Below the pieces are notes generated by a model. The model worked only from the letters and a program-made list of their open reading frames with translations. It was not told the origin of the DNA and did no database searches. A DNA stretch of 64,000 nucleotides from Cycloclasticus sp. symbiont of Bathymodiolus heckerae (GTDB lineage: Bacteria > Pseudomonadota > Gammaproteobacteria > Methylococcales > Cycloclasticaceae): assembly GCA_002101235.1 (NCBI GenBank), contig LWTL01000123.1:62001-126000 (forward strand), given 5' to 3'. Of the stretch, positions 6,039 to 12,547 are shown in pieces. Made by a program: the position numbers and the translations under genes. Every line of letters begins with the position of its first letter. Position 1 is the stretch's first letter.

Positions 6039-8531
6039 ATGTCATCAATACTATTAGCTTTTTATAACCGAACGATATTAGGCCACCCATTAATTACGTT
6101 GCTTATGGTAGCCCTCGTCATCGCTGGCTTGGCGTCTTATGCTCCTAAATTTAGGTTGGATGCATCTGCTGAGTCTTTGGTGCTTGAGAATGATGAGTCG
6201 CTTGAATATTACCGATCAGTTAAAGCACTTTATGGGTCAGATGATAGTTTAATTATTACATATACTCCCAAAGCTGCGCTTTTCTCTGATGAGGTTTTAG
6301 AGGATTTAAAACAGCTGCGTTCTAAGTTAGAAAAAGTAGATCGGGTGGAGTCTGTCACGACATTATTAAATGTCCCTCTAATCAAAAGCCCACCTGTTAC
6401 GTTGCTTGAATTAAGTCAAGAAGTGATTACCTTAGAAAGTGTGAAGGCTGATCGTGAGTTGGCTCGTAAAGAGATTCTTTCTAGCCCACTCTATCGTGAT
6501 TTATTGATCAGCAAGGATGGAAAGACAACAGCCTTGCAGGTCATTTTTGAATATGATGAAACGTGGGAGCAGTTGTTAAAGCAGCGTGATGCCTTGCGTA
6601 CTAAACAACTTGAGCTTGGGCTTTCTTTGCAAGAAAGTGAGCAGTTAAATGCGTTTTCTAATGCGTTTGATGCTCATAACGCTTCGTTACAAGCCCAGCA
6701 AAATAGAAATATTGTTACTGTACGTAACATTATGGATGAACACCGAGAAGTCGCTAGCCTTTATTTAGGTGGCGTGCCGATGATCGTGAGTGACTCCATT
6801 GATTTTGTTCGCCATGACTTAATGACGTTTGGTGTGGGTGTTTTTATTATTCTTATCGTCATTCTCAGCATTATTTTTAGGCGCCCACGTTGGGTTGTGC
6901 TTGCGATGATAACTTGTGCGGCGTCAGGTATAAGTATGATTGGCATGCTGGGTTTACTCAATTGGCCAGTGACGGTTGTTTCATCAAATTTTGTTTCGTT
7001 ATTGCTTATTCTGACGCTGTCGTTATTGGTGCACTTGATCGTTCGATATAGAGAACTGCATGGTTTAAAGCCGACAATTACTCAGCGAGATTTAGTTCTT
7101 GAAACAGTGGGAAGTAAGTTTATTCCCTGCTTATATACCTCAATAACAACAATGGTGGCATTTAGCTCTTTACTGGTAAGTGGTATTCGCCCCGTTATTG
7201 ATTTTGGCTGGATGATGGTTATTGGGATAACCCTTGCCCAGCTGATTGCATTTACATTGTTTCCAGCCGCTCTGATGTTGTTTGATAAGGAAAAACCGGT
7301 TCATGAGCATGACGTTACCGAGGCGGCCACTCAATTTTTAGCTCGTCAGAATGAGAAGCATGGCCGCGGTATTATCCTGTTATTTGTGGCCTTAGCGTTA
7401 TTAAGCATTTGGGGTATTACTAAGCTAACGGTTGAAAACAGGTTTATTGATTACTATAAAGAATCAACCGAAATCTATCAGGGAATGGAGCTAATAGACC
7501 GCAAGTTAGGTGGTACAACACCTCTGGATGTGGTGATTGATGCACCGGCTTATTTCTTATTGGAAGAAGAGGACGATGATGAGTATGACGAAGATGATGA
7601 GTTCTTTGATGATGAATTTTCTGATGCTGGAGCAGGAATAACGGGGTCGAGCTATTGGTTCAACAGTGACATGTTGGGGAAAATTGAGGAGATACATCGT
7701 TACCTTGAGAGCTTCGATGAAACGGGCAAAGTAATTTCCATAGCGACGACGGTCAGTTTATTGAAAAGTCTTAATGAGGATATTCTCAATAATGACTTTG
7801 AACTGGCGATTCTCTATAAGAAACTACCTCCGGTTATTAAAGAGTCATTGATTGAGCCGTATATGTCTGAGGATGGGAACCAATTACGCTTTAGTATTCG
7901 TATTTTTGAGTCCGATCCTAAGCTGAAACGCGATGAGTTACTGGCGAATATTCGTCAAGGCTTAGCTCAAGAGCTGGGGTTAGAAGATGAGCAAATTAAA
8001 ATTACCGGCATGGTTGTACTCTATAACAATATGCTTCAAAGTCTTTTTAAGTCGCAAATTTTGACGCTAGGCGTTGTCTTTATTGCCATTGTATTAATGC
8101 TCTCAATACTCTTTAGAAATATACGTTTGGCTGTAATAGCTATTATTCCGAATATTATGGCGGCAAGTATGGTGCTTGGTCTTATGGGCTGGTTAGGCAT
8201 CCCACTGGATATGATGACAATAACCATTGCAGCCATTTGTATAGGCATTGCTGTTGATGACACTATTCATTACGTTCACCGTTTTACCAATGAATATAGC
8301 AAGCACCAAGACTATTGGCTTGCTGCACGGCGAAGCCATAGTACTATTGGTCGGGCGATGTATTACACATCGTTAACCATTACGATTGGTTTTTCTATTT
8401 TAGTATTTTCTAATTTTATACCTACAATATATTTTGGCCTGCTAACCGGCTTTTCTATGATTGCTGCATTGTTGGCAAATATGACGTTATTACCTTTGCT
8501 GATTATTCGCTTCAAACCACTAGATAGCTAG
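6039..8531 (+). CDS. RND superfamily (MMPL type) exporter
   Basis: An 830-residue inner-membrane protein with two repeats of one helix, a periplasmic domain and five helices. The second repeat contains the GIAVDDTIHYVHRF motif in the TM4 region, typical of bacterial RND/MMPL exporters. The periplasmic loop of the second half carries an acidic run at about residues 508-531 (EEEDDDEYDEDDEFFDDE). Such proteins are assigned to export of lipids or other hydrophobic molecules; the substrate is unknown. No membrane-fusion partner or outer-membrane channel lies nearby. It begins just inside the left tRNA-related repeat. Confidence 0.88.
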   Translation: MSSILLAFYNRTILGHPLITLLMVALVIAGLASYAPKFRLDASAESLVLENDESLEYYRSVKALYGSDDSLIITYTPKAALFSDEVLEDLKQLRSKLEKVDRVESVTTLLNVPLIKSPPVTLLELSQEVITLESVKADRELARKEILSSPLYRDLLISKDGKTTALQVIFEYDETWEQLLKQRDALRTKQLELGLSLQESEQLNAFSNAFDAHNASLQAQQNRNIVTVRNIMDEHREVASLYLGGVPMIVSDSIDFVRHDLMTFGVGVFIILIVILSIIFRRPRWVVLAMITCAASGISMIGMLGLLNWPVTVVSSNFVSLLLILTLSLLVHLIVRYRELHGLKPTITQRDLVLETVGSKFIPCLYTSITTMVAFSSLLVSGIRPVIDFGWMMVIGITLAQLIAFTLFPAALMLFDKEKPVHEHDVTEAATQFLARQNEKHGRGIILLFVALALLSIWGITKLTVENRFIDYYKESTEIYQGMELIDRKLGGTTPLDVVIDAPAYFLLEEEDDDEYDEDDEFFDDEFSDAGAGITGSSYWFNSDMLGKIEEIHRYLESFDETGKVISIATTVSLLKSLNEDILNNDFELAILYKKLPPVIKESLIEPYMSEDGNQLRFSIRIFESDPKLKRDELLANIRQGLAQELGLEDEQIKITGMVVLYNNMLQSLFKSQILTLGVVFIAIVLMLSILFRNIRLAVIAIIPNIMAASMVLGLMGWLGIPLDMMTITIAAICIGIAVDDTIHYVHRFTNEYSKHQDYWLAARRSHSTIGRAMYYTSLTITIGFSILVFSNFIPTIYFGLLTGFSMIAALLANMTLLPLLIIRFKPLDS

Positions 8532-8573
8532 ATTCAATTAAGTTTTAAATCTAGGTGGCCGTTTTGTTTATAA

Positions 8574-8720
8574 AAGAGTGAGGTAACTGGTAATGCGGAT
8601 ATTTTACTAGCGCCAGATATGGAGGCAGGGAATATGTTAGCCAAGCAATTAATTTATCTATCGCCTGCTAAGGCAGGCGGAATTGTATTGGGTGCTCGTG
8701 TTCCGATGATTTTAAGGTAA
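8574..8720 (+). pseudogene. C-terminal remnant of a phosphate acetyl/butyryltransferase (Pta-like)
   Basis: About 48 codons, from an upstream stop to TAA 8718-8720, read GNADILLAPDMEAGNMLAKQ followed by LSPAKAGGIVLGARVP. This is the conserved near-C-terminal part of the phosphate acyltransferase domain, as in the bifunctional enoyl-CoA hydratase/phosphate acetyltransferase proteins. There is no start codon, and everything upstream of this segment is missing. The last 4-5 codons run out of frame into acetate kinase sequence, which marks a deletion junction near 8708-8715. Confidence 0.8.
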
Positions 8721-8809
8721 CGGTGCGGGTTATTCCTACTAATGAAGAACTTATCATCGCAAAACATGCGCTGGCACTGACACATCATCAAGGCGTATTT
8801 AACATTTAA
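8708..8809 (+). pseudogene. C-terminal remnant of acetate kinase (AckA)
   Basis: In the frame offset from the Pta remnant, the sequence reads DDFKVTVRVIPTNEELIIAK then a short tail to TAA 8807-8809. V-x-V-I-P-T-N-E-E-L-x-I-A is the C-terminal signature of acetate/propionate kinases. About 30 codons remain of a protein that is normally near 400 residues. It abuts fabI, whose ribosome-binding site overlaps the remnant's stop codon, so the original gene order was pta-ackA-fabI. Confidence 0.78.
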
Positions 8810-8818
8810 GGAGCAAAT

Positions 8819-9598
8819 ATGTACTCAATGGATAACTTTAATTTAAAAGGTAAAAAGGGTTTGATTTTAGGTATAGCTAACCAGCATTCAATTGCTTATG
8901 GCTGTGCAAAAGCATTTAAAACATTAGGTGCTGAGTTGGCAATTACTTATTTAAATGAGCCTTCAAAGAAATTTGTTGATCCGATTGCTGAAGAATTAGA
9001 GCCAGAAATCTTTATGCCTTGCGATGTGCAAAATGAGGAAGAATTTGCTGCTGTATTTGCAGCCATTGAAAAAAAATGGGGTAAATTAGATTTTGCTCTG
9101 CATTCAATTGCTTTTGCTCCGAAAGAGGATTTGCAGGGTCGCCTAGTTGATTCTTCAAGCGCAGGCTTTCTGACGGCAATAGATATTTCGTGCCACTCCT
9201 TTATACGGATGGCTAAAATGGCTGAGCCTCTTATGGTTGATGGCGGATCATTATTTGCGATGAGCTATTATGGCGCTGAAAAAGTGGTTAATAACTATGA
9301 CCTAATGGGGCCAGTAAAAGCGGCACTAGAAAGCTCTGTTAGATACCTTGCTAATGAGCTGGGGCCAAAAGGGATTAGAGTTTATACCATTTCCCCCGGC
9401 CCTGTTAAAACACGCGCAGCATCAGGCCTTAAATCATTTGATGATCTGATAACAGAAACAGTGAAGCGTACGCCGGCTCATCATTTAGCAACAATTGAAG
9501 ATATTGGTATGGCAACAGCCTTGATGGCAACACCAGCAGCTAAAATGATTAGTGGCGACACTGTTTATATTGACGGTGGTTTCCATGTAATGGGCTAG
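8819..9598 (+). CDS. fabI: enoyl-[acyl-carrier-protein] reductase FabI
   Basis: FabI performs the last reduction in each cycle of type II fatty-acid elongation, using NADH. The 259-residue protein is an SDR with the FabI-type cofactor loop GIANQHSIAYG (18-28), and the catalytic set Tyr150, Tyr160 and Lys167 in SYYGAEKVVNNYDLMGPVK. The substrate loop reads HSIAFAPKEDL, with Ala where E. coli FabI has Gly93; this form is typical of alphaproteobacterial FabI. The start has AAGGAG five bases upstream, overlapping the stop of the ackA remnant. It lies inside the repeat-bounded segment. Confidence 0.93.
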   Translation: MYSMDNFNLKGKKGLILGIANQHSIAYGCAKAFKTLGAELAITYLNEPSKKFVDPIAEELEPEIFMPCDVQNEEEFAAVFAAIEKKWGKLDFALHSIAFAPKEDLQGRLVDSSSAGFLTAIDISCHSFIRMAKMAEPLMVDGGSLFAMSYYGAEKVVNNYDLMGPVKAALESSVRYLANELGPKGIRVYTISPGPVKTRAASGLKSFDDLITETVKRTPAHHLATIEDIGMATALMATPAAKMISGDTVYIDGGFHVMG

Positions 9599-9603
9599 CT
9601 TTC

Positions 9604-9723
9604 ATGTCTGGACTCTTAGCATTTGATATTTCATCAATACAAGAGTCTATTGTTTGGGCGGCATTATTATTAGCGCTTATGAGCATTTTTTCCTTACCGC
9701 TTGGAGCGCCACTTCTTTTTTAA
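9604..9723 (+). other. short membrane-peptide ORF, possible truncated gene start
   Basis: A 39-codon frame from ATG 9604 to TAA 9721-9723, five bases after the fabI stop. It encodes one hydrophobic segment (ESIVWAALLLALMSIFSLPL). It looks like the N-terminal helix of a larger membrane protein whose remainder is missing, since the following sequence has no matching frame. No convincing ribosome-binding site. A functional small protein cannot be excluded. Confidence 0.3.
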
Positions 9724-9998
9724 ATTACGCCCAAGTATCTGTTCAGCATGGTGACAAAATCATTACGGTCTAAAGGTCGTCCTGTGTTTAGGTGACTCTC
9801 AAAATCGCCGCCTAATAACGACCGGAGTAAAAACAAGAGTATTCATCTCAGCTCGTAAAACCGATAAGGCCGAGCGTAAACAATATAAGGAGTTAGCCAT
9901 GCGTGAGCAATTCAATGGCTGAAATTGACAATTTATTAGCTGCTGTTGAGAGGATTACCGTTAACTGAACCCAGCATCAATTCTTACGTGTCACGTAA
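9724..9998. other. non-coding debris between fabI and tRNA-Met
   Basis: No intact gene on either strand. Short protein-like scraps occur: TRVFISARKTDKAERKQYKE around 9831-9890 and a 17-codon frame MAEIDNLLAAVERITVN from 9917, next to an ATAAGGAG-like site. None is long enough to name. Between 9985 and 10020 three spaced copies of an (A/G)CGTAA(AA) motif occur, the last two within the direct repeat. I read the stretch as decayed accessory DNA. Confidence 0.4.
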
Positions 9999-10065
9999 AA
10001 CCGCGTAAAAGTCGCGTAATTTCTAAGGGGAATGGCTTGGAATGGTGGTCATGGGTGGACTTGAA
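9999..10065. repeat. direct repeat, right copy, overlapping the tRNA-Met 3' end
   Basis: Partner of the repeat at 5958-6023. The right copy covers the last 23 nt of the intact tRNA-Met gene and 44 bp beyond it. CGCGTAAAAG-type units recur in this flank, like the spaced arm sites used by tyrosine recombinases, although no integrase gene is present. The two copies delimit about 4 kb. Confidence 0.75.
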
Positions 10066-10119
10066 CCACCGACCCCGGCATTATGAATGCCGTGCTCTAA
10101 CCAGCTGAGCTACATGACC
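10043..10119 (-). tRNA. tRNA-Met (anticodon CAT)
   Basis: A 77-nt cloverleaf reads on the minus strand from G10119 to an encoded CCA. The acceptor GGTCATG pairs with CATGACC, the D arm reads GCTCAGCTGGTTAGAGC, and the anticodon stem CGGCA/TGCCG closes a TTCATAA loop. The T arm has GGTTCAAGTCC. It lacks the three consecutive G-C pairs of the initiator anticodon stem and resembles elongator tRNA-Met; a tRNA-Ile2 with modified CAT is the alternative. Confidence 0.93.
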
Positions 10120-10193: not shown

Positions 10194-11285
10194 TTACACA
10201 TTAAACCTGAAATGCGTCACATCACCATCCTGCATGATGTATTCCTTACCTTCCACGGTTAATTTACCGGCTTCTTTTGCACCTTTTTCACCGTTGTATT
10301 GAACGAAGTCTTCATAGGCGGTAATTTCTGCGCGAATAAACCCTTTTTCAAAATCGGTATGAATAACCCCCGCAGCTTGTGGTGCTGTTGCGCCTTTTTT
10401 AACTGTCCAAGCGCGTACTTCTTTCACCCCAGCCGTAAAATATGTCTGTAGGTGCAACAAATCATAACCCGCTCTAATAACTCGATTTAAGCCCGGCTCT
10501 GTTAAGCCCATTTCTTCTAAAAACTCAGCTCGCTCGTCTTCTTCCAACTGAATAATTTCAGCCTCGAGTAAAGCGCACACGGCAACCACTGCCGCACCCT
10601 GTTCTTTCGCTAACGCTGTAACTGTATCTAAAAACGGGTTGTTTTCAAAACCATCTTCTTGCACATTGGCGATGTATAACATTGGTTTAAGCGTTAACAG
10701 CTGAAAGCCTGCCAATGATTCCAGTTCATCTTCTGTTGCGTCTAAGGTACGTAACGTCATTGTATCGTCTAAGTGTTTAAGAACTTTTTCAAAAAAAACT
10801 TTCTTCTTTAACTCGTCTTTATTTCCTGACTTTGATGCTTTTGTTGCTTTTACCACTGCCTTCTCAAGCGACGACATATCAGCCAACGCAAGCTCTGTTT
10901 GAATCACTTCAATATCGGCTATTGGGTCTATTTTTCCCGCTACATGAATGACATCATCATCTTCAAAACACCTCACCACATGAGCAATCGCATCGGATTC
11001 ACGAATGTTGGCTAAAAACTGATTACCCAAGCCTTCGCCTTTTGAAGCCCCTGCTACTAACCCAGCAATGTCTACAAACTCAAAAGTGGTTGGGATAACC
11101 CGTTCAGGCTGAACAATTTCAGCCAATTTATCTAACCGTAGGTCAGGCACTGGCACAATGCCAGTGTTTGGCTCAATTGTACAAAACGGGTAGTTTTCCG
11201 CTGCAATGGTTGCTTTTGTTAATGCGTTGAAAAGTGTTGATTTACCGACGTTCGGCAAGCCGACAATGCCACAATTTAAAGCCAT
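10194..11285 (-). CDS. ychF: redox-regulated ribosome-binding ATPase YchF
   Basis: A 363-residue Obg-family P-loop protein. The G1 motif is GLPNVGKST (9-17); the usual GTP-specificity motif is altered, which is why YchF/OLA1 proteins prefer ATP. The C-terminal TGS-like domain includes [20 protein letters not shown], a diagnostic YchF signature, and the protein ends in [10 protein letters not shown]. It binds the ribosome and takes part in stress responses. The usual pth neighbour is absent; tRNA-Met lies downstream and leuB is divergent. Confidence 0.95.
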
Positions 11286-11440: not shown

Positions 11441-12547
11441 ATGAAGAATTATAAAATTGCGATTATGGCCGGCGACGGCATTGGCCCAGAAATTATGCAA
11501 GAGGCTGTTAAAGTTCTTAAATTAGTCGAGGAACGTAACGATGTAACGTTTGAATTGATGCCTGCTTTATTTGGTGCATGCGCATACTTTGAAACAGGCG
11601 ATGCTTTTCCTCAAGCAACAAAAGACATTTGCGATGAAGCTGACGCGATTATTAAAGGTCCTATTGGTTTAAGCCATGAAGAGTCTAAAAAGATTCCGGT
11701 TGATAAACAGCCAGAACGCGGTGCTTTATTACCGATGCGCCGTCGTTACAACACATACGCAAACTACCGCCCTGTTTCTTTACCTAAGGGCTTGGCTCAC
11801 TTTTCACCGCTAAAACCTGAAATTATTGGCGATGGTATTGATTTAATTATGATCCGCGAATTAGTCGGCGGCTTATACTTTGGCGAAAAAGAAGTAGGCG
11901 TTAATGACGAAGGCTTACGCTACGTTAAAGAAACGTTGGAATATGACGAAAAACAAATTCGCCAAATTATGCTGCACGCTTTCAAGATGGCAAACAGCCG
12001 TAAGAAAGTGCTGCACAACATCCATAAGAGCAACGTTTTAAAGTCGTCTGTGCTATGGAATGAAATTATGGAAGAAGTAGCCGTTGATTTCCCTGAAGTT
12101 GAAGTAATCAACATTCTTGTGGATGCGGTAGCGACGTTACTTTGCCTTAAACCAACACAGTTTGATGTGATGGTAATGGAAAACATGTTTGGCGACATTC
12201 TAAGCGACCAAGGCGGCGGCATTTTAGGGTCTTTAGGCCTTATGCCATCTGCTTGCCTAGGTGACGAGAAAGCGTATTACGAACCATCTCACGGTTCTGC
12301 GCCTGATATTGCAGGCAAAAACATGGCCAACCCTTATTCTATGATTGGTTCTGTTGCTATGATGCTTGAATACAGCTTTGGCATGGTTGAAGAATCCAAA
12401 AATGTTTGGGCGGCTATGCAAGCTGTCTTTACTGATGGTTACTCAACGGCTGACCTTTCAAAACCAGGTTCTGGCGTTAATATGATTAGCACCGTAGAGT
12501 TTGGCGATAAAGTGGTTGAAAAGCTAAAGGCGATGCCTACAGTTTAA
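11441..12547 (+). CDS. leuB: 3-isopropylmalate dehydrogenase-like beta-decarboxylating dehydrogenase
   Basis: Oxidises and decarboxylates 3-isopropylmalate (or 3-methylmalate) with NAD. The 368-residue protein shows family signatures AGDGIGPEIM (10-19), RGALLPMRRRYNTYANYRP with substrate-binding arginines, the RELVGGLYFGE loop, ENMFGDILSD and EPSHGSAPDIAGK. It departs from standard bacterial LeuB after the metal-binding Asp: DQGGGILGSLGLMPSA in place of DEASMLTGS-type sequence. The context with leuC, leuD and leuA supports leucine or citramalate-pathway use. AGG precedes ATG 11441. It is transcribed alone and converges on leuA. Confidence 0.82.
   Translation: MKNYKIAIMAGDGIGPEIMQEAVKVLKLVEERNDVTFELMPALFGACAYFETGDAFPQATKDICDEADAIIKGPIGLSHEESKKIPVDKQPERGALLPMRRRYNTYANYRPVSLPKGLAHFSPLKPEIIGDGIDLIMIRELVGGLYFGEKEVGVNDEGLRYVKETLEYDEKQIRQIMLHAFKMANSRKKVLHNIHKSNVLKSSVLWNEIMEEVAVDFPEVEVINILVDAVATLLCLKPTQFDVMVMENMFGDILSDQGGGILGSLGLMPSACLGDEKAYYEPSHGSAPDIAGKNMANPYSMIGSVAMMLEYSFGMVEESKNVWAAMQAVFTDGYSTADLSKPGSGVNMISTVEFGDKVVEKLKAMPTV

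Follow-up and report, generated by a model that had tools for sequence, protein, structure and literature searches.

Passages of PMC8231600 describe the gene order ORF-pta-ack-fabI in Sinorhizobium meliloti, where pta-ack-fabI is reported to be co-transcribed and induced by phosphate starvation, and phaC-pta-ack-fabI in Burkholderia sensu lato. The DNA stretch analysed here (64,000 nucleotides from the genome of a Cycloclasticus sp. symbiont of Bathymodiolus heckerae, hereafter the window) contained the same pta, ack and fabI set in the same order, but whereas the operons in these passages are intact (PMC8231600), pta and ackA were present in the window only as remnants in front of an intact fabI (Table 1). 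The phaC gene of the Burkholderia sensu lato operon (PMC8231600) was absent from the scar; PhaC_N matches were found in 18 of 18 genomes of the genus and, in the symbiont genome, lay on other contigs.

With a probability of roughly 0.93, positions 8574-8809 are a pseudogene scar of a pta-ackA-fabI operon of the type found in Alphaproteobacteria, probably acquired horizontally, in which fabI was spared and maintained. The scar is the ordinary decay of an operon of known kind and has no wider mechanistic consequence; it offers a readable record of a probably acquired operon eroding in a Cycloclasticus lineage.

Table 1. Features of the pta-ackA-fabI locus in the window.
Feature	Position	Strand	Evidence
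pta remnant (phosphate acyltransferase), residues ~241-287 of ~320	8574-8717	+	Profile matches, tblastn, alignment
ackA remnant (acetate kinase), 33 terminal codons plus stop	8708-8809	+	NCBIfam, tblastn, alignment
Frame-change zone, fusion point of both remnants	8708-8717	+	Alignments
AAGGAG, likely fabI ribosome-binding site	8809-8814	+	Read from sequence
Intact fabI, enoyl-ACP reductase, NF005717 (PRK07533) subtype	8819-9598	+	431.5 bits, cut-off 337

Layout and losses at the locus

A stretch of 287 bases separates fabI from the stop codon of the gene ahead of it, which encodes an MMPL/RND transporter (6039-8531). The 48 codons of the pta remnant are bounded by an upstream stop at 8571-8573 and a terminal TAA at 8718-8720, while the ackA remnant (codons 8708-8806, stop 8807-8809) is read in a different frame, its stop overlapping the AAGGAG ahead of fabI. 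The initial annotation had described the last third or less of a phosphate acyltransferase running out of frame into the final 30 acetate kinase codons, while fabI and the ribosome-binding site ahead of it were untouched. The out-of-frame passage, with 33 acetate kinase codons, and the intact state of fabI were borne out, as was the identity of the Pta stretch; its position was not, as the last ~33 Pta residues are missing. The junction, expected near 8708-8715, was placed close by, at the frame change within about 8708-8717, by alignment to the genes of intact operons. Complete pta and ackA reading frames, which a functional pta-ackA-fabI operon would have, were absent from the locus; as members of a degenerate operon, a Pta homologue was found upstream (as a remnant only), an AckA homologue between pta and fabI (the 33-codon remnant, with weak family scores), and downstream a FabI of the operon-associated subtype (NF005717). 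A compact G-C-rich hairpin, terminator-like by its pattern, was also found at 8661-8680, inside the pta remnant.

Intact counterparts were surveyed in the best 80 of 361 confirmed FabI-relative loci, some of the stretches being short. The genes pta, ackA and fabI followed each other in this order in 44 of the 80, all of them from Bradyrhizobium or other Alphaproteobacteria, and both remnants matched in order and place, so that the resemblance to a pta-ackA-fabI operon proposed initially was supported. Other loci had fabI followed by pta-ackA (6) or only one of both genes (2), and in 28, including both Cycloclasticus loci, neither gene was found within the stretch examined; the FabI family is therefore not bound to the operon. 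The metagenome bin L070, which bears the doubtful label Bordetella parapertussis, carried fabI followed directly by ackA. The FabI proteins of Bradyrhizobium and its kin were about 57-60% identical to that of the window, and their gene order was that of the scar, with the remnants aligning at the expected places; their pta and ackA are whole, whereas 48 and 33 codons are left in the window. The two matched stretches, which lie ~1.2 kb apart in Bradyrhizobium L078 (3649 and 4852), touch in the window.

The initial claim that a deletion had removed nearly all of two genes held for the loss itself and failed for the single event: since pta has also lost its 5' three quarters, at least two boundaries are needed and one deletion does not account for all of the loss. 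An ancestor would have possessed, probably through horizontal gain, an operon of the pta-ackA-fabI type that Alphaproteobacteria carry today. One deletion would have taken the initial three quarters of pta, a separate one the stretch from the last ~33 pta codons through all but the last ~30 ackA codons, with fabI and its ribosome-binding site spared and fabI still maintained. This ancestral state is deduced from distant relatives (~60% FabI identity), because the genus yielded no intact operon and the sister loci carry no remnant. A limited search of the literature found nothing on pseudogenes in Cycloclasticus symbiont genomes.

It is improbable that the true genome is intact here and that the assembler dropped the middle of the operon. 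The assembly does consist of 123 contigs, but the scar lies inside a 183-kb contig, two separate losses would be required (the 5' part of pta and the pta-ackA junction), and the repeats in 8400-8900 are short (exact ones of 8-9 nt, or imperfect ones of 13-17 nt). Hardly to be expected, either, is a remnant turned useful as a leader, with a new promoter, hairpin or small peptide acting on fabI. The sole terminator-like site of 8400-8900 does fall in the pta remnant (8 pairs, 6 of them G-C; one found against 0.3 expected) and a promoter-like site lies at 8777-8805; the tail of the hairpin is nevertheless T-poor and its sequence single-copy in the window, promoter-like sites numbered 3 against 2.0 expected, and among the 18 genus genomes the scar DNA matched only the window's own, with no match in the 17 others. 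Under decay of a pta-ackA-fabI operon, the remnants would be without function.

Identity of the pta and ackA remnants

The whole-genome search with PF01515 (PTA_PTB) matched the window at 8571-8711 (24.8 bits, E 1.6e-5, profile positions 253-300), with one TAA falling inside the match, and the remnant peptide reached 24.1 bits where the Pfam cut-off is 24. Among the NCBIfam models, NF006045 (E 4.3e-20) and NF008852 (E 9.2e-20) scored below their whole-protein cut-offs, as expected of a fragment; this applied to the short-type Pta models in general, including the enoyl-CoA hydratase/Pta fusion PRK08190, which matched at about E 1e-20. Alignment with 11 chosen intact Pta proteins was gapless over 46-47 residues, with identities from 28/47 to 34/46 (60-74%). 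The same segment showed a mean identity of 79% (range 57-98%) among the intact relatives, calculated on 25 equal-length pairs of 55 and raised by several close kin among the 11 proteins. By this comparison the remnant would hardly exceed a living gene in divergence, and the loss need not be an old one.

The translated search against the FabI loci (tblastn, best 80 of 361) detected similarity to Pta and AckA in the respective stretches, with 67.0 bits for the pta remnant and 33.5 bits for the ackA remnant, while the best of 200 shuffles reached 26.9 and 24.3 bits, respectively. Both remnants matched at E <0.1 in 46 loci, namely the 44 with pta-ackA-fabI, one in which fabI precedes pta-ackA (L086) and one with a pta-ackA pair and no fabI seen in the stretch inspected (L057). 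The ackA remnant peptide obtained no match in the Pfam profile search and five in NCBIfam, all of them weak and to acetate/propionate kinases (best E 0.0066). These weak family scores are what a chance similarity to ackA, with the pta remnant alone being real, would have in its favour, but that explanation can practically be dismissed given the score above all shuffles and the position of the best matches, which in the 44 loci fall on the 3' end of ackA, next to the start of fabI.

Acetate genes and FabI in the genome and genus

A whole-genome search of the symbiont detected no acetate kinase, and two of the 18 genus genomes, several of which are incomplete, possessed one (G004 and G005). A free-standing Pta was likewise not found in the symbiont genome, whose only full Pta domain (PF01515) lies in a 756-aa protein that matches, from end to end, a model of NADP malic enzyme (1021 bits, cut-off 1178). 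The genome check for other pta and ackA copies supports the initial proposal that the Pta-AckA route between acyl-CoA and acetate has been lost at this locus. Ligase/GNAT fusions can be lysine acetyltransferases; for this reason, and because it scored below the NCBIfam cut-offs, a ligase/GNAT relative on contig C111 was rejected as a replacement acetate route. The fusions of Cycloclasticus G017 (894 aa; L056:7309-9993) and of the symbiont genome (899 aa; L175:2488-5187) were 67% identical.

FabI of the NF005717 subtype scored above cut-off in three of the 18 genus genomes, several of them incomplete, and in three of 301 sampled genomes of the order, which were the identical three; because of this distribution, acquisition of a pta-ackA-fabI cassette followed by its erosion is likely. 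The nearest FabI proteins were those of Cycloclasticus G017 (74% identical) and G003 (72%). The comparison of fabI with G017 gave 0.17 differences per nonsynonymous site and 0.77 per synonymous site (near saturation), and that with G003 gave 0.17 and 0.71, respectively. Judged from these substitutions, fabI is still maintained, with its protein sequence conserved.

A quick-method FabI tree was calculated on 93 rows, one for the window and the others for 92 of 107 loci, with loci left out that had a minus-strand match, an internal stop or a short match. The window and the two Cycloclasticus rows formed a group (support 98), and this group then joined the L070 bin (support 84) within a larger set composed mostly of Alphaproteobacteria, the group not being placed inside Alphaproteobacteria with firm support. 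The other FabI of the order that were entered fell on the opposite side of the tree (support 98). Such a topology agrees with a transfer into Cycloclasticus and names no donor.

FabV (PF12241) was present in 16 of the 18 genus genomes, among them the symbiont genome itself (G000:C123:42615-43322); of the good-quality genomes, 10 of 10 had it. FabI is therefore a second enoyl reductase and looks redundant beside FabV, an orphan whose presence is explained by the scar. That the surviving fabI, now without its acetate partners, was retained because of some separate benefit, such as specialisation or inhibitor tolerance of its enoyl reductase, with the scar now serving as its leader, is a rather doubtful proposition.

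Neighbourhood of fabI in Cycloclasticus relatives

Neither G017 nor G003 had a pta or ackA remnant in front of fabI, and an intact pta-ackA-fabI operon was not found in the genus. In both relatives, unlike in the window, the gene after fabI encodes an acyl-CoA ligase/GNAT protein. Downstream of fabI, G017 encoded the 894-aa ligase/GNAT protein, a DUF711 protein and then two genes in common with the window, where their counterparts lie at 10194-11285 and 11441-12547 (88% and 92% identical); we take these, and their G017 counterparts, to be ychF and icd. Between fabI and the first of them, the window contained ~0.45 kb without a recognised gene (9599-10042), followed by a tRNA-Met (10043-10119). 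As G017 has two genes at this place, 9599-10042 may be a second eroded zone. Two peptides from it were considered as debris of the G017-type genes and rejected, as none of their family matches rose above chance level (best E 0.016).

Upstream, no other queried window genes were found near the relative of the MMPL/RND transporter gene in the five genus genomes inspected; close relatives of this gene were present in six other genomes of the genus, in G006 in pieces.
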